Shown here piece after piece: positions 3,248 to 16,677 of a DNA stretch of 16,677 nt. Position 1 is the first letter of the stretch. The number at the start of each line of letters is the position of its first letter. The stretch covers positions 1 to 16,677 of the forward strand of contig JAGWVZ010000027.1 in assembly GCA_018970625.1 (NCBI GenBank). The letters run 5' to 3'. The notes beneath the pieces were generated by a model. That model was not told the DNA's origin. It searched no databases and was given only the letters and a program-made list of their open reading frames with translations. The translations under genes were made by a program, and so were the position numbers. Source of the stretch: Myxococcales bacterium (GTDB taxonomy: Bacteria > Myxococcota > Bradymonadia > REDH01).

Positions 3248-3721
3248 CTATGCCTCGCCGTTCGCAGTCATGGTGGCGGAGCGCAGGCCGCGGCTGGTCA
3301 CGTTGGGCAGGGGCTGGAGATGAAACTCGAATCCTTTCTGCTGCAGCTGGTTGAGCTGCGTCCGTTGCTCGAGGCTGATAGTGACCTGCGCCGACAGTCG
3401 GTCACCGGTACTGTCGATGTTGACCAGCACGGCCCGTTGGGCGGTGAGTCCGAACTGTGAAGCACGAAGCAGGTGGTCAACCGACTCAAAGAGCGCGACA
3501 ATGCGCGTGTCCTGCGCGGTAGCCTGCAGCTCAGCGAGCGCGAAGCCCGGTTCACGCACCGACATTGGCACGACGGGGATGATGTCGTGCAGGAGCTCGG
3601 GATCGGGCTCCGAATCGCCAACGAACCAGATGACATCGGGGTCGAGCGCAGGTACCCAGTTTTCGAGCAGGGCTCGACTGAGACCGCGGTCGTCGATGAG
3701 GATGTGAAAGGAGCGGTTCAC
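3248..3721 (-). CDS. Mannose-family PTS IIB-like protein lacking the phosphorylated histidine
   Basis: The 157-residue protein aligns by eye with the EIIB domain of mannose/fructose/sorbose PTS transporters: N-terminal HILIDDRGLSRALLENWVPAL, then DVIWFVGDSEPDPELLHDII, TRIVALFESVDHLLRASQFG, and the C-terminal VTISLEQRTQLNQLQQKGFEFHLQPLP, matching the family's 'L-x(n)-G-x-x-x-x-x-Q-x-x-P' ending. Active IIB proteins have (D/E)RLIHGQV near residue 15, with His accepting phosphate from IIA. Here the segment is DDRGLSRAL, with Ser15 at the His position, so phosphotransfer should not occur. The start is GTG overlapping the rapZ stop (GTGA at 3718-3721), so translation is probably coupled. No IIA, IIC, IID, HPr or EI gene is in the window. 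Its place after rapZ in an rpoN operon suggests a regulatory rather than transport role. The family call is moderately sure; the His loss is visible directly. Confidence 0.75.
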   Translation of the reverse strand: MNRSFHILIDDRGLSRALLENWVPALDPDVIWFVGDSEPDPELLHDIIPVVPMSVREPGFALAELQATAQDTRIVALFESVDHLLRASQFGLTAQRAVLVNIDSTGDRLSAQVTISLEQRTQLNQLQQKGFEFHLQPLPNVTSRGLRSATMTANGEA

Positions 3722-9183: not shown

Positions 9184-12100
9184 ATGCGCACAATCTCTCT
9201 TCCATCCCAAGGTCTGTTACCTGCCGTCAGGTGTGCCTTCGGTTCAGCCATGCTGGCGGGTGTTGTACTCGCATCCGGCTGCGCTGAGCAGGGTGAGGTG
9301 GAGGTGGCTGAGACCTCTCCGGTCCCCGACACGGCAACGGCGTCGGTGGATGCGGGAGGTGTCTCGGGTGCCGATGCCGTTTTGTGGTCGTATGAAGAAG
9401 ATGTGACGCTGGGGTACGTGCCGTTCGAGGGGCGCTGGGAGCGCGAAACAGGCGAGCTGGTGTTCACGTTCGACGAAGAACCATCGGTTCGGGTGAACGG
9501 CGATCTCGCGACGCGCGGACAGGCGCTCTGGTGTCGTGACCAGCTGTTGATCGCGACGGACGGCAGTCCGGATACGAACCCGCCGGAGACTGCTCAGCTG
9601 CGCAGCTTTGACGTGCTCGAGGACAGCGCGTGCGGGCCGGCCTATGGTGGGCTGGGCGGCTATACGGCGTTGTGTTCGGATGTCGAGCTGCGCTCGTTCT
9701 ATACGAGCCGCAGCTTCACCAACGTGTACGCCGAGGTCCGCGAGATTCCGGAGAGTTTCAAGGCGTACACCTACGCCGACCGAATTGCGGCTCAGCTCGC
9801 CGGTATTCCGGGTGTCGGCACGGGTTCGCTTCCGCCGGCAGGCGAGATTGGACGAACCGGGGTCAGTGATGCTCCCACGGATTCGCTCGGCGGTCTCTTC
9901 AGCTACGGCAATCTGGCGCCCGGTGCGTCGACGACGCGTCAGTGGGTGTTCCGTAATCCTCCCGGTCAGGACAGCTTTACCTTTCGCGGTCGCATTGTCG
10001 TCCAGATGCTGGAGGTTTGTGACGGCGTCGATAATGACTGCGATGGTTACGCAGACGAAGGACTGGGCTGCCTGAATATCGGTGCTGAGTGCCGCGATAA
10101 CAGCGACTGCCAGGCCGGCGTCAGCTGCATTTACAACGAAGTGAACGACAACAACACCTGCGGTGGCGGACTCGCTCAGGAGAATTGCTCGGGTACGGTG
10201 GATACCAACGGCGATGGTAACGTCGGTTGTCAGGACCCGACCTGCTCCGGGGTGGGTGCATGTCCCGTGTTCTCGTGTGCACGAGGCAACCTCGGTAGCG
10301 CAACGAGCAATGTGAGCCTCGCTCCTCTGGCGACCTTCCTGCACCGTAGTACGGGAACGAGCGACCAGACGCTGGCTGTCGGCGAAGCGGCATGTGGTTC
10401 TCAGCTGCCCGGTGTCGATACCGTCTATCGTTGGCAGGCTCCTTACGCCGGCGACTATACGATCACGACCGCCGGCAGCACGTTCGATACAGCGCTCGTC
10501 GTTGTGCCTGCGGTTTGTCCCATTGATATCTCGGCTGCGTTCCTTCCCGGCGGGCCTGGTCAGTGCGCCGACAGCGCAGCGGCTGGCGAAACCACCGAAG
10601 AGCTGACCCTCACCAACCTGAGTGCCGGAGACGCGTTCTTCATTATTGTGGACTCGCGTTTCCCGCCTGCGACCCCTGTTGTGGGCAACGGCACCGGTCG
10701 CCTGTCGATTTACCGTGTGCCGGTGTGCGGTGACAATGTGCTGGATGCCAATGATCGGCTCGGTAACGTGCTGGAAGAGTGCGACTCCGGTGGCGTGAAT
10801 ACGACGACCTGTAACTTTGACTGCTCGTCCACGGTGTGCGGCGATGGCTATGTGAACCTGACTGTCGAGAACTGCGAGGACGGCAACCTGCTCGCGAACG
10901 ATGGTTGCTCAGCACTGTGCCAGTCCGAGACGGGGTGGGACTGCAATCCGACAGGATGTACCGAACGATGTGGTGACGGGATCGTTCCTCCGGGTGGTTC
11001 GCACGTGTGCGACGATGGCAATCTGGTCGCGGGTGATGGCTGTAATGCGACCTGTACGGCGGTTGCAACCGGTTGGACCTGCCCTGCGGGCGGCGGTGCA
11101 TGCGCCGAGGTGTGTGGTGATGGTCTGGTGGTCGGCAGCGAGGTCTGCGACTCGCCGTCCGCTCCCGGCTGCGACAACAGCTGCCGCACCGTGCGCACCG
11201 GCTTCCGTTGCCCGAGCGCTGGCGGTGTGGGTGGTTCGTGCACCCCGATCAACGAGTGTGCAGAGGGCACGGCGGTGTGCGGTGCCGATGCGAGCTGTGT
11301 TGACCTGACCCCCGACCTGCTCACGGTTGTGGATACCTATCGGTGCGACTGCAATGCGGGGTACACCGGCGACGGTCAGGTGTGCACCAACATCAACGAG
11401 TGTCTGACGGGCACAGTGTGCGGTCCCAACACGAACTGTCAGGACCTTGTGCCTGCTGCGTCGGGTGGCTCTCGTTTCGCGTGCACCTGCCAGACGGGCT
11501 TCTCGGGCGATGCGTTCAATACGGTTACGGGATGCGAAGACAATAATGAGTGCGCCACGGCGAACGGCGGTTGCGACCCGCTGACGACGTGCACAAACAC
11601 GGCCGGTTCGCGCACCTGCGGTGCGTGTCCGTCGGGTTACACGGGGTCGGGCGATGTGGGTTGCGAGCGGGGTGACTGCGGCGCTCCGGTCGTGCCTGCG
11701 AATGCCACCGTGTCGACGACGCCGGCAGATTATCGTCTGAACTCAACGGTCGTGTACGCGTGCCAGAGTGGTTACGAGCTGACGGGAGGCAATCTGAGCC
11801 GGACCTGCGCGCCTTCGGGTGGTGGGGTTGCTTTCAGCGGCTCCGCTCCGGTGTGCTCCGCGGTGTCGTGCGGTCTGCCTTCGTCACCGCCGGCGAACGC
11901 GACGCGCGTGGGAACGGCCACGTCGTACGTGTATCCTCAGGTGGCGCAATTCACCTGTAACGCGGGTTGGACAATCGCCGACCCGGCAAACCTGAACATG
12001 GCCTGCGGCGCCAGCGGCAGCTTCTCGGCTCCGGCGGGTGCCTGCGAGCGCGTGGCATGCCCGACGATCGCGACAACCGATGTGGCCAACGGCACCGTAT

Positions 12101-15100
12101 CGGCCGGCGACAACCTGTTCGAGACCGAGCGGACGATCACCTGTAACACCGGCTATGCGCGCAACGGCGCCAGCGCGATCACGTGTCAGGACAACGGACA
12201 GTGGTCGGCTGCGCTGCCTACATGCGACATCAAGACCTGTACGCTGCCGGCCACGCCGGCCAACATGAGCCTGACGACGGTGAACCCGTCGAACGAGTGG
12301 AACACAAGCGTGAGCTACAGCTGCAACCCGGGTTACACCCAGGTGGGAAGCCTGACGAGCACCTGTGAGGATACCGGTCCGTCCACCGCCGCCTACTCAG
12401 CGTTGACCGGGAGCTGCCAGATTCAGTCGTGCGGCGCGCTGAGCCTTCCGAATGGCTCGGTCGGTGTTCTGGCCGGTGATGGTAATTCCTTTGGTTCGCG
12501 GCTTTCGTTCACCTGTAATGCCGCTGCGGGTTACGTACTGTCGGGCTCGGCGGTGCGGGAGTGTGTGGTCAGCGGCGCCTCGGTGGCATGGAATGGTACG
12601 GCTTCGTCGTGCGCCCTGTACGACTGTGGCGCGCCGGAGCTGCCGACGAACAACGGCCGTCTGGTCTCGCAGAGCGGTGGGACGACGTTTGGCGCAAGCG
12701 TCACGCTGGGCTGCGCGCCCGGATACGGCGTGGTGAGCGGAGACACGACTCGCACCTGCGGAATCGGCGGATGGAGCGGCACGCTGCCGGTGTGTGCGCC
12801 TCTGGCGTGCCCGTCGGTGGCGAGCGGCGGTCCCGCGTTCGTTGCCAATGCCACCATTGTCAGTGGAGACCCTGCGGGGCTGTTTGGTGGTCCGGCTGTC
12901 ACGTGGGATTGCAACGAGGGTTATCGCCTTACGGCGGGCAACCTGACGCGCAGCTGCGAAGTCAGCGGTGGCGGCGTGGCGTGGACGGGCACGACCCCGG
13001 TATGCACGCGCATCAGCTGCGCACCGCTCAATGGTGGCGCGCTGGCCAATGGTCAGGTGCTTTCGCCGGCCGGTGCTCTGCCCGCGACACTCGATTACAA
13101 CCAGACCATCCAGTACGGCTGTAACAACGGCTTCGACCCGGTGGGTTCGTTTGAGCTTCGCTGCACGGGCGCAACCGATGCTGGCGGTAATATTGTCAAT
13201 AACGGCTGGAACAACCCGCTGCCCACGTGCGAGGCAGGCAGCTGCGGTGAGCTTCCGGTGGTGGCCAACTCGACGCGCGTATGGAACGGCTCGAACGCAG
13301 TGAACGTGGGCTCTGTGACCTACACCTGCATCAACCCTGGGTACAACCGGACCTCGGGCAACCTGTCTCGCCAGTGTCTGCCTACGGGAGTGGGTGCAGA
13401 ACGTCAGTGGACCGGCACCTCGCCCGTGTGTACACCAGTGACGTGCCCGTCGCTGAGCACTCCGACCGGTCAGCTGGCCACAGGTGACACGACCAACTTC
13501 GATTTTGGTGCGCTGCGCACGTTCGAGTGCAATCCGGCGATTGGCTACGTATTGCCGAGCGGTGCGACAGAGTCTGACCTGAACGTGAGCTGCAACGCGT
13601 CGGGTGATAACTCGACCGGTGTGTGGAGCACGCCGGCCCGCGCTTGCGAACGGGTGACCTGTCCCGTGTTGCCTGCACCTGGCAACGGTGGGTCGTGGTC
13701 GCGCACGTCGGGCGATGTCTCGGGCGGCGGTGCTCCCTTCTTTGGTGCTGCCTACACGGTCAGCTGTCCATCGGGTTACGTGATTCAGGGCGAGGCCAGC
13801 CGCACGTGCGGGCTCTCCGGCTGGTCGGGCAACCCGACGGCGACGACCTGTGTGCCGGCGTCGTGTGGCACGGCTGCTCCTTCGGTGTTGTCGCCGGCCG
13901 GCGTAGGTCCGTCACCGTCGATCGTGACTGCCGGTGGCGCACCGTCAACCGGCCTGACCGGTGACCGTGCCGTGTACAGCTGTCCGGCAGGCTGGGAGTT
14001 CTCGGGCGGCGGTGCGACCTACGAGCGCACCTGTACGGCCAACGCGGGCACCGATACCTCGAGCTGGTCGGGCACGCCCGCTACCTGCGTGCGTCGTACG
14101 TGCTCTGCGCTGACGGCACCGACGAATGGTGCGTTGTCGAGCGCGAACCGGGCCTATGAAACGACCGTCAACTTCAGCTGCGACACGGGCTATCGGCGCA
14201 ACGGCGCTGCTTCGGCCACCTGTCAGCTGAACGGTGCCGGGCCGGGTGTCACGTGGAGTGCAAACGTACCCACCTGCGAGCGCATCACCTGCGACCCGAG
14301 CACGCAGCCTGCGGTGGTGACCGGTCGTACGCCCCCCGCTTCGTGGCCCAATCCCGCGGTGGTGGCGACCTCGACGCCAGGCAGCGCCTCGACGGCCACG
14401 CATACGTGTGCGGGTGGTTATTCGGTGCAATCTGGTGCCGGCGGTCAGGTGTGTCAGACCAGTGATAACATCACCGGCGCCTGGGCGTGGTCGGCAGGAG
14501 AGCTGGTGTGTGCGGAGCGCAGCTGCTCAGCGACTCCGCCTACCCGGTCGACCTTCGTGGTTCCGTCTGGTCCGGTGGGCGACTCGACGCTGGGTGGTCA
14601 GTACACGTACACCTGCCAGTCGGGCTACTACCTGACCAGCAGCAGTGCGTCGGGCAACACGCGCGTGTCCACATGCAGCTACAACGCCGGGACAGACACG
14701 ATGGAGTGGAGCGCCACAACCGCCTGTGTGCCCGTATCGTGCGGCGCGTTCACTGCGAGTGCGCCCAACAATACGACCGGCGGCGTCAGCTACAACACCG
14801 ATGGTCAGGGCTCTCAGCTTCTGGGAAGCACCGCCCAGTGGAACTGCGCCACGGGATTTGATTCCAATGGCGACACGGCAGGCGGAGCGACTGTCGCCGT
14901 GGCCACCTGTGGTGCGACGGGCACGTGGAGCGTTACACAGACCTGCCAGCCGGTGTCGTGTCCGGCTACGCTGCCGACGGTCGCCAATACGACCGGGGCG
15001 CCGACGGGGTCCGGGTTTGCTCCCGCCAGCACGCGGGTCTGGACGTGCAGCGACGGCTTCGTGAATACGGGCAACACGGCACGCACCGTAACGGCGACCT

Positions 15101-16677
15101 GCGCCGGCGCTGCCACGGGTACCTGGAATGTGGTGGGTTCCTGCTCGCAGGTGACCTGCGGTTCGCTTGCGCCCACGGGCAATCAGAGCACCACGCCCAA
15201 CACCACGCAGAACTGGGGCGCTACCGCTGATCTGGGTTGCAACAACGGTTGGTGGACCGGTGCAGGCGGAAACCTGACCGTGTACTGCGGCTACGGTGGA
15301 GCACTCAACTCGACGACGGGCTCGTGGCGAATCACGAGCACGGGCGGCAGCACGACGTTCACCCGGCCGGCCTGTACCACCGCTCAGGTGTGTCAGGACA
15401 TGGGTGACAACGCCGCGCAGTGGGACGCTGCGGTTGTGTACAGCGCTGGTACAGCCAACAACCGGCCCGTCGCCTCTACGGGTACGGAGCGTTGTCTGGC
15501 GGGTACGACGGAGGGGACGGCCGGTACAACGGTGCATACGTGCACTGCCGCAACCGGAACAAACCAGTTTGCGAACTGGGTAACCTCCGGTCCATCGACC
15601 TTCACGCGACGAACCTGCACCAACGCGACAGCAGCCGCCAACGCATGTCGGCAGGCCTATGGCGCCCAGTTCGTAGACCACACCGTGTTGCAGCGCGATC
15701 CCCCGCTGTTGTTCGAGTGTGAGTGCGCGACCGGTTACTCCAGCAGCGCAACGTTGTCGGCTGATGTGGCACCGACGACGTGTCAACCCGCGTGCGGTAA
15801 CAACACCACGCTGGTGGACGCACCTCAGATTGGCGAGGCGTGCGACTATGGTTCCAGCTGCAATACGGTTGATCCTCCAGCGGTATGCCCGAACAAGTGC
15901 GAGGGCGTGGCATGCAATACCCGGTCCGTCTGCCGCCCCAATGTGACCTCCGGCATTTGCGAGATTCCGGCAGGCGTTAGTCCCAACCCCCGCTGCGACG
16001 ACGGCGGTGACAACGACGGCGACGGCCTCGTGGACTGCTTTGACCCGGATTGTTCAGGCGTGGGTGAGTGTCCGAGCTGGGCTGGTTCGTGCGGCATCGA
16101 TGCCTACGTCGGCTCTGGTCAGACCGGACTGGGTGCGTTGCAGCCGAGCTGGTTCAACTGGAGGGCGCAGTTCACGAGCGGCGAGCAGTACAACGTGGCC
16201 AACACCAACGCTGACTACGCCGTGTTGTGGCGTGCTCCGCACACCGGTACATGGGAGTTCAACACCTGTCAGCTGGCCACGGGTGTGGGCATCTCGGTGC
16301 GCGGTGGTTCGCGTATCCCGAACAGCGCCTTCACCGCTTCCGCCAGTTATTCAGGTACGTTTGGCCGCCCACAGCAGGCCCGGTTGTGGAACCTGGCCAC
16401 GGGGGGCAATGGTGGCTGGGCTGCAGCCTCTGGGAACAACTGGCTGCAGGTCGATCTCGGTGCCGCTGTGTCCATCGGCGCGATCGGAACTCAGGGCCAT
16501 GCCGAATACACCGAGTGGATGGCATCGTACTGGTTGTTGTACTCCGCCGACAATGTCACGTGGCGTAACGCACGAACCGACGCTGTCGTGACGATCAATG
16601 CTGCCGCCACCGCCACCTACGGAAGCAATGCTGGGGACTGGTTCAGTGGTAACTCTGACCAGTCGACAATCGTGTAC
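9184..16677 (+). CDS. Giant modular surface lipoprotein: disulfide repeats, EGF, ~18-20 sushi domains, discoidin (partial, runs off right edge)
   Basis: ATG 9184 is 6 nt after GGAG (9174-9177) and opens 2498 codons with no stop to the edge. A signal peptide ends in LASGC with C33, a somewhat loose lipobox. Order of parts: MopE-like CDGVDNDCDGYADEG (279-293); NGDG...CQDPTCSGVGACP (about 335-361); a PPC-like beta-sandwich (about 376-512, DTVYRWQAPYAGDYTI, FDTALVVV, AGDAFFIIVDS); four CGDG-type disulfide repeats (from C515, C551, C596, C644); three Ca-binding EGF-like domains (about 690-827, each opening N-E-C); 18 clear plus 2 degenerate sushi/CCP modules (832-2200); a second NDGDG...DPDCSGVGECP (about 2271-2298); a second PPC-like segment; and a discoidin (F5/8 C) domain from about 2378 (ASASYS, WLQVDLGA, IGTQGHAEYTEWMASYWLLYS). 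It is probably surface-anchored, disulfide-rich and made for binding glycans, cells or matrix; the ligand is unknown. A possible sigma-54 promoter precedes it. Confidence 0.92.
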   Translation, partial: MRTISLPSQGLLPAVRCAFGSAMLAGVVLASGCAEQGEVEVAETSPVPDTATASVDAGGVSGADAVLWSYEEDVTLGYVPFEGRWERETGELVFTFDEEPSVRVNGDLATRGQALWCRDQLLIATDGSPDTNPPETAQLRSFDVLEDSACGPAYGGLGGYTALCSDVELRSFYTSRSFTNVYAEVREIPESFKAYTYADRIAAQLAGIPGVGTGSLPPAGEIGRTGVSDAPTDSLGGLFSYGNLAPGASTTRQWVFRNPPGQDSFTFRGRIVVQMLEVCDGVDNDCDGYADEGLGCLNIGAECRDNSDCQAGVSCIYNEVNDNNTCGGGLAQENCSGTVDTNGDGNVGCQDPTCSGVGACPVFSCARGNLGSATSNVSLAPLATFLHRSTGTSDQTLAVGEAACGSQLPGVDTVYRWQAPYAGDYTITTAGSTFDTALVVVPAVCPIDISAAFLPGGPGQCADSAAAGETTEELTLTNLSAGDAFFIIVDSRFPPATPVVGNGTGRLSIYRVPVCGDNVLDANDRLGNVLEECDSGGVNTTTCNFDCSSTVCGDGYVNLTVENCEDGNLLANDGCSALCQSETGWDCNPTGCTERCGDGIVPPGGSHVCDDGNLVAGDGCNATCTAVATGWTCPAGGGACAEVCGDGLVVGSEVCDSPSAPGCDNSCRTVRTGFRCPSAGGVGGSCTPINECAEGTAVCGADASCVDLTPDLLTVVDTYRCDCNAGYTGDGQVCTNINECLTGTVCGPNTNCQDLVPAASGGSRFACTCQTGFSGDAFNTVTGCEDNNECATANGGCDPLTTCTNTAGSRTCGACPSGYTGSGDVGCERGDCGAPVVPANATVSTTPADYRLNSTVVYACQSGYELTGGNLSRTCAPSGGGVAFSGSAPVCSAVSCGLPSSPPANATRVGTATSYVYPQVAQFTCNAGWTIADPANLNMACGASGSFSAPAGACERVACPTIATTDVANGTVSAGDNLFETERTITCNTGYARNGASAITCQDNGQWSAALPTCDIKTCTLPATPANMSLTTVNPSNEWNTSVSYSCNPGYTQVGSLTSTCEDTGPSTAAYSALTGSCQIQSCGALSLPNGSVGVLAGDGNSFGSRLSFTCNAAAGYVLSGSAVRECVVSGASVAWNGTASSCALYDCGAPELPTNNGRLVSQSGGTTFGASVTLGCAPGYGVVSGDTTRTCGIGGWSGTLPVCAPLACPSVASGGPAFVANATIVSGDPAGLFGGPAVTWDCNEGYRLTAGNLTRSCEVSGGGVAWTGTTPVCTRISCAPLNGGALANGQVLSPAGALPATLDYNQTIQYGCNNGFDPVGSFELRCTGATDAGGNIVNNGWNNPLPTCEAGSCGELPVVANSTRVWNGSNAVNVGSVTYTCINPGYNRTSGNLSRQCLPTGVGAERQWTGTSPVCTPVTCPSLSTPTGQLATGDTTNFDFGALRTFECNPAIGYVLPSGATESDLNVSCNASGDNSTGVWSTPARACERVTCPVLPAPGNGGSWSRTSGDVSGGGAPFFGAAYTVSCPSGYVIQGEASRTCGLSGWSGNPTATTCVPASCGTAAPSVLSPAGVGPSPSIVTAGGAPSTGLTGDRAVYSCPAGWEFSGGGATYERTCTANAGTDTSSWSGTPATCVRRTCSALTAPTNGALSSANRAYETTVNFSCDTGYRRNGAASATCQLNGAGPGVTWSANVPTCERITCDPSTQPAVVTGRTPPASWPNPAVVATSTPGSASTATHTCAGGYSVQSGAGGQVCQTSDNITGAWAWSAGELVCAERSCSATPPTRSTFVVPSGPVGDSTLGGQYTYTCQSGYYLTSSSASGNTRVSTCSYNAGTDTMEWSATTACVPVSCGAFTASAPNNTTGGVSYNTDGQGSQLLGSTAQWNCATGFDSNGDTAGGATVAVATCGATGTWSVTQTCQPVSCPATLPTVANTTGAPTGSGFAPASTRVWTCSDGFVNTGNTARTVTATCAGAATGTWNVVGSCSQVTCGSLAPTGNQSTTPNTTQNWGATADLGCNNGWWTGAGGNLTVYCGYGGALNSTTGSWRITSTGGSTTFTRPACTTAQVCQDMGDNAAQWDAAVVYSAGTANNRPVASTGTERCLAGTTEGTAGTTVHTCTAATGTNQFANWVTSGPSTFTRRTCTNATAAANACRQAYGAQFVDHTVLQRDPPLLFECECATGYSSSATLSADVAPTTCQPACGNNTTLVDAPQIGEACDYGSSCNTVDPPAVCPNKCEGVACNTRSVCRPNVTSGICEIPAGVSPNPRCDDGGDNDGDGLVDCFDPDCSGVGECPSWAGSCGIDAYVGSGQTGLGALQPSWFNWRAQFTSGEQYNVANTNADYAVLWRAPHTGTWEFNTCQLATGVGISVRGGSRIPNSAFTASASYSGTFGRPQQARLWNLATGGNGGWAAASGNNWLQVDLGAAVSIGAIGTQGHAEYTEWMASYWLLYSADNVTWRNARTDAVVTINAAATATYGSNAGDWFSGNSDQSTIVY
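10726..11220 (+). repeat. Four myxobacterial-type disulfide repeats inside the lipoprotein gene
   Basis: Copies start at 10726, 10834, 10969 and 11113 (protein C515, C551, C596, C644). Each follows CGD(G/N)xV...C(D/E)(D/S)...C...C; the third is the best match (VCDDGNLVAGDGCNATC). They resemble the DUF4215 / TIGR02232-like Cys-rich repeats common in Myxococcota surface proteins. Confidence 0.8.
11677..15783 (+). repeat. Tandem array of sushi (CCP) modules inside the lipoprotein gene
   Basis: First-Cys codons of the clear modules are at 11677, 11869, 12058, 12238, 12430, 12625, 12808, 13018, 13243, 13444, 13660, 13864, 14101, 14290, 14524, 14740, 14959 and 15157. Two degenerate units follow from 15391 and 15649. 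Each has four Cys, a GY or GF after the second Cys, and usually a W(S/T)G...C ending. Units are 180-240 bp and diverged, so this is an old protein-level expansion rather than recent DNA duplication. Confidence 0.88.

Follow-up and report, generated by a model that had tools for sequence, protein, structure and literature searches.

The frame at the right-hand end of the window (the whole 16,677-nucleotide stretch of Myxococcales bacterium DNA that was analysed) encodes a predicted giant lipoprotein with 19 consecutive sushi modules, an array far beyond chance, lying between an N-terminal domain designated the base and a discoidin domain. The base is common to a family of bacterial lipoproteins for which no description was found in the open-licence PMC literature searched, and complement-type sushi arrays have been built in bacteria, inside this family. 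The sequence supports well the view that the protein is a surface-anchored rod. It is somewhat probable that this putative outer-membrane lipoprotein serves as an elongated receptor for contact or adhesion.

Domain layout of the window protein

On the + strand, the frame is stop-free from TTG 9178 or ATG 9184 to 16677, which is the edge of the window and not the end of the gene, and encodes 2,498 aa counted from the ATG. ATG 9184 is the correct start; GGAG lies 6 nt upstream, and the N-terminus of the database homologue P0002 (3,312 aa) is the same residue. All 2,498 residues were aligned with P0002 at 93.8% identity and with zero gaps. An indel or hidden stop is therefore very unlikely, and the proposal in the initial annotation of one lipoprotein of more than 2498 residues, with the error that it feared, was resolved in favour of a single intact frame that runs off the window. 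P0002 extends 814 aa beyond the window edge; the window holds about three quarters of the protein, and the remaining quarter is known from P0002 only. The features are as follows.

9184–9282, + strand: lipoprotein signal peptide with lipobox LASG/C, matching the lipobox pattern; predicted lipidated Cys at codon 9280–9282
9418–10002, + strand: N-terminal base domain, residues ~81–275 (own HMM; all-beta AlphaFold2 model)
10009–10059, + strand: MopE-like CDGVDNDCDG motif, below cut-off (Pfam PF11617, E 4e-4)
10288–10728, + strand: PPC-like beta domain 1, named by eye, without Pfam hit (kept in the rows of alignment A1)
10834–11247, + strand: DUF4215/myxo_disulf_rpt disulfide repeats, three stretches, outer limits approximate (Pfam PF13948, NCBIfam TIGR02232)
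11257–11664, + strand: three 6-Cys EGF modules (EGF_3 above and EGF_CA below the Pfam cut-offs; Cys positions)
11677–15618, + strand: 19 consecutive sushi/CCP modules, residues 834–2147 (Pfam PF00084; 19 Cys quads)
15985–16071, + strand: acidic double-disulfide repeat CDDGGDNDGDGLVDCFDPDCSG, sub-threshold (NCBIfam NF033662, 32.5 bits against a cut-off of 41)
16090–16308, + strand: first part of PPC-like domain 2, split by the discoidin domain (P0002/P0016 alignment; named by eye)
16333–16677, + strand: F5/8 type C (discoidin) domain, residues 2386–2500, cut by the window (Pfam match residues 2386–2475; PDB)

The lipobox, identified by the lipobox pattern, reads VVLASGC and follows a hydrophobic N-terminus. 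The sushi profile PF00084 matched with E 2.2e-66 (220.5 bits, cut-off 20.7). Pfam itself marks 13 stretches at E <= 1, and counting of Cys quads gave 19 modules, within the 18–20 first estimated, each spaced C-x(25-38)-C-x(13-20)-C-x(11-28)-C. Trp lies between the third and fourth Cys in 16 of the 19 modules, and the linkers are 4 aa long in 17 of 18 cases and 5 aa in the other. The array is followed by a further Cys-rich part that contains the acidic repeat, below cut-off.

EGF and discoidin domains had also been proposed, and both EGF_3 (E 5e-7, two stretches) and F5_F8_type_C (PF00754; E 2.1e-10, 41.2 bits, cut-off 28.2) were, like Sushi, recovered above the Pfam cut-offs, the discoidin match being partial with 115 aa in the window. 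The proposed disulfide repeats were likewise recovered by DUF4215 (E 1.4e-9, three stretches, above the Pfam cut-off) and myxo_disulf_rpt (NCBIfam, E 3.1e-19), whereas Cu-binding_MopE (PF11617) reached 21.0 bits against a cut-off of 27, and the motif is MopE-like only. The best PDB sequence match of the discoidin segment was the CASPR2 discoidin domain (E 1.2e-11). Full-length P0002 scored 110 bits for F5/8 type C in two stretches, indicating a second discoidin domain beyond the window. In one global alignment, the first discoidin domain of P0002 sits between the halves of a PPC-like domain that is uninterrupted in P0016. Judged from P0002, the discoidin domain is not C-terminal; the single match obtained for the P0002 tail was a weak one to VOMI (E 4e-4, under the cut-off), and the similar-looking tail of P0016 gave a different weak match, dermatopontin.

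Lysine is nearly absent from the window protein (3 in 2,500 residues) and makes up 0.07–0.38% of its relatives P0002–P0006 and P0012–P0018, compared to 2.1–4.9% of five other window proteins (CTP synthase, RpoN, S30AE, RapZ and cyclophilin). It is also low in two membrane-like window proteins (0.40 and 0.64%) and in a small PTS IIB-like protein (0.64%). With these three proteins low as well, export by itself may be an insufficient explanation.

The bacterial setting of the window is plain from the neighbouring genes. Pfam identified CTP synthase, sigma-54, an S30AE ribosome protein, RapZ, cyclophilin and a response regulator on the opposite strand. In the phylum of G001, 361 of the 377 genomes gave a match to the window RpoN, and the closest was genome G036 (57%); the window is myxobacteria-like. 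Two membrane-like proteins with signal-like starts (677–1420 and 2009–2947, - strand) had no Pfam match at E <= 0.001, and the small protein beside rapZ (3248–3721, - strand) had a sub-threshold PTS IIB-type match (E 6.7e-5).

The base domain and its lipoprotein family

The base domain begins 46 residues past the lipobox Cys. Its AlphaFold2 model is all-beta (pLDDT 73.7, pTM 0.74), and residues ~81–275 had no Pfam match, no PDB sequence hit and no confident fold match. An HMM was built from the five rows of alignment A1, one of which is the window domain itself, and matched that domain with E 1.6e-77. The base was identified in 26 of 33 proteins examined (the window protein and 32 database proteins), five of the 26 being rows of the HMM. 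Their ectodomains were sushi in 10, FGE-sulfatase in nine (one also with LTD) and RCC1 in four; one each had an EGF array, discoidin without Pfam-detected sushi, and DUF4215 only. Not every member has a discoidin domain. The lipobox pattern is present in 25 of the 26, P0004 missing the strict pattern, and in 24 of these 25 the base starts 38–56 residues past the lipobox Cys. The other is P0017 (69 residues), whose match begins late in the model and which keeps the same plan with an EGF array in place of sushi. In P0013 the sushi array is almost lost (2 quads). The C-termini of P0004 and P0015 are Cys/Trp-rich and thrombospondin type 1-like by eye, with no such Pfam match listed.

The HMM also matched 23 ORFs in 42 genome loci, which had mostly been chosen for base-type matches; 21 of the 23 carry the lipobox pattern. 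The 23 do not count independent paralogues, since several look orthologous across genomes by domain sequence. Pfam searches of 15 of them identified FGE in six, TSP3 in two, and RCC1, NIDO, LTD, beta-propeller, DUF285 and DUF4215 alone in one each, with no match in one and sushi in none of the 15. Six base-domain lipoproteins (L078, L102, L108, L109, L113 and L117) have one to four FGE-sulfatase stretches. The base is firm in four genomes (G001, G002, G060 and G227), from all of which sushi was absent in the profile search; only the window protein and database proteins are therefore known to combine the base with a sushi array.

Alignment A1 matched at least 146 of 282 genomes in the phylum sample, with no more than six candidates scored for any one genome. 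The best 20 matches (E <= 4.1e-22) all lie in the four firm-base genomes, and most others listed cover the MopE/PPC part and not the base; among the matches listed, G277 (positions 43–268, E 1.6e-14) and G183 (93–200) are partial exceptions. In the order of G036, six of six genomes matched a query that includes the MopE-like end, G139 at that end only. G036 has two weak base-like ORFs (E 2.8e-4 and 3.7e-5); in addition to this weaker base-like domain, it has sushi as single modules adjacent to FGE-sulfatase (L074, L075). Reverse-transcriptase matches were present in five of the six genomes of this order.

The longest contigs listed for P0002 and P0015 are equal in length (183,467 bp), as are those for P0005 and P0014 (140,285 bp), which suggests two such genes per genome. 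Judged by domain content, the family has a common base and a differing later ectodomain (FGE-sulfatase-like, RCC1, TSP3, nidogen, lamin-tail, beta-propeller, EGF, sushi or discoidin). The constancy of the base is relative, since it was the best conserved 100-aa stretch in only two of six pairs: P0006/P0012 (87–89%, overall 71%) and P0013/P0014 (80–83%, overall 61%). In P0014/P0016 the base was high (71–76%, overall 55%), yet one sushi block reached 80%. It was not the best conserved stretch in P0004/P0015, window protein/P0002 or P0002/P0003, the last pair compared over the 1,709 aa of P0003 only.

History and spread of the sushi modules

The window sushi modules average 34% identity among themselves and reach at most 52%. 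Modules 1–12 pair one-to-one, in order, with the 12 of P0003, and the order is looser in more distant relatives. Mean module identity was 38% to L069, a bacterial lipoprotein, compared to 28% to one eukaryote array. A tree of 154 modules included 17 of the 19 window modules after a motif filter, and no animal sequence. In this tree, which is weak because modules are short, all 25 modules of the eukaryote protein that were left after the filter dropped seven of its 32 quads fell in a single clade without window modules, and 16 of the 17 window modules were nearest to a module of another protein.

In the phylum of G001, 16 of 377 genomes contained sushi, five of them with at least 14–16 matches in one ORF; in that of G382, one of 299 did, as a marginal match in a 52-aa frame. 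None was detected in 199 genomes of the phylum of G381, where the search gave no hit anywhere and is thus no proof of absence, nor in 14 control genomes. Among 12 selected genomes, sushi was present in G036 only, and it was absent from five further genomes (G002 also belongs to the set of 12). L069–L073, from five genomes of the phylum, form a second lipoprotein family with about 19 sushi modules and another shared C-terminus; L069 has 19 Pfam sushi stretches and four EGF stretches. Long sushi arrays with EGF and F5/8 C domains had been called typical of animal complement regulators and matrix proteins. The description "animal-complement-like" holds for the module types only: the base is common to bacterial lipoproteins with other ectodomains, and these same-phylum lipoproteins without the base domain have long sushi arrays too.

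By title and start of abstract, no report of bacterial sushi arrays was recognised among the open-licence PMC papers listed, and no paper joined the sushi domain with myxobacteria or with Bradymonadales. In PMC9031357, "sushi" is a laboratory's name. Bacterial arrays of this kind allow sushi rods to be studied independently of complement, and "CUB/sushi domain-containing protein" as the name of a bacterial protein (P0004) tells nothing on complement.

Discoidin variability and a putative recognition role

Between the window protein and P0002, 85 of 115 discoidin residues were identical (73.9%), compared to 2257 of 2383 elsewhere (94.7%; Fisher 2e-12, residues treated as independent). The discoidin segment was the lowest of all 115-aa stretches; the lowest lying wholly before residue 2300 had 100 of 115 identical. 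All other segments were 90.5–97.3% identical, and single sushi modules 88–99%. Loops were assigned from an alignment with factor V and the spike positions. Loop 1 had 6/13 residues different, loop 2 had 3/17, loop 3 had 3/10 and the last stretch 12/27, against 3/20 and 1/17 in two core stretches; loop 1, loop 3 and the last stretch exceeded the core, and loop 2 did not. The pattern comes from one protein pair and part of one domain, with the segment chosen after the per-domain identities were known, and relaxed constraint or gene conversion would give the same pattern in this protein-level comparison.

That the discoidin part differs most between two close relatives suggests a role in recognition or attachment. 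A lipid would anchor the protein on the outer face of the outer membrane, and Ca2+ and disulfides would stiffen the stalk. Sushi modules are 3–4 nm long, and 19 of them would give a rod of ~60–75 nm. This long stalk may present the fast-changing, lectin-type discoidin domain, whose putative target is a surface of glycan or lipid; the likeliest bearers of that surface would be other cells, whether prey, kin or further neighbours. Discoidin domains often bind sugars. The initial annotation had proposed a prey- or kin-binding adhesin. Binding or adhesion is the best reading; prey and kin as targets are not distinguishable from sequence.

A structural protein of the matrix or sheath is a rather unlikely but serious alternative; the array would then be a passive spacer or a fibre of the cell coat, and its discoidin domain would do no more than anchor it to the cell's own polysaccharide. 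In favour of this, the rod has length, regularity and age (in the tree, 16 of 17 window modules are nearest another protein's module), its order is kept relative to P0003, and other base-domain members bear TSP3, nidogen-like or beta-propeller parts; however, the fastest change in the discoidin domain and the differing display modules fit outward recognition better, neither being proof. Less probable again is a kin-recognition receptor of the TraA type, with self-specificity set by a variable discoidin domain. TraA combines cysteine-rich repeats with a PA14-like domain that is variable (PMC6372800, PMC3325183), and variability is local in the window protein too, but that comparison holds two close sequences only. 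Neither the window protein nor P0002 gave a PA14 or MYXO-CTERM match (Pfam, NCBIfam), although a remote PA14 relative could be missed, since TraA's own PA14 is a distant one, and none of the nine scanned window genes upstream resembles traB, the downstream side lying outside the window. It is highly improbable that the protein imitates animal complement regulators, having been taken over from an animal host to counter that host's immunity: the best solved-structure sequence match was complement receptor 1 (E 2.9e-111 for many modules taken together), but this reflects a common module type, the eukaryote modules (one array, none from an animal) form a clade without window modules, mean module identity is higher to L069, every base domain found came from a bacterial genome or from a database protein without a eukaryotic label, and a complement function or interaction is unsupported.

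For the favoured contact receptor, recognition becomes testable through the common base, differing displays and one fast-changing domain. More tentatively, this uncultured myxobacteria-like group may possess a repertoire in which giant lipoproteins combine a single base with exchangeable ectodomains of animal-like type, and the window discoidin domain would be diversifying under recognition selection. If true, the design of this bacterial repertoire would parallel that of receptor families built from constant and variable regions.

Several known systems share parts of this design. The authors of PMC3325183 suggest that the Cys-rich stalk of TraA presents its PA14 lectin-like domain. TraA of Myxococcus (PMC6372800, PMC3325183) and the window protein share a lectin-type domain, a Cys-rich stalk and local variability. 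Unlike TraA, the window protein lacks a PA14 or MYXO-CTERM match, has a lipobox and a sushi/EGF stalk, and carries its lectin-type domain far from the N-terminus. L069–L073 resemble it in their lipobox, recognised by eye, in their sushi-type quads (19 each in four proteins, 13 in the contig-cut L073) and, for L069, the one scanned, in EGF; they differ in that the base HMM matches none, L069 has no discoidin domain and their shared C-terminus is different by eye. Surface proteins with myxo_disulf_rpt/DUF4215 repeats and MopE-motif proteins are alike in their disulfide repeats, above cut-off here, and the MopE-like motif, yet in the window protein these repeats are only part of the stalk. Animal proteins of the complement receptor 1 type have similarly long head-to-tail sushi arrays with short linkers, to which the window protein adds a lipobox, bacterial stalk repeats, and base and discoidin domains.
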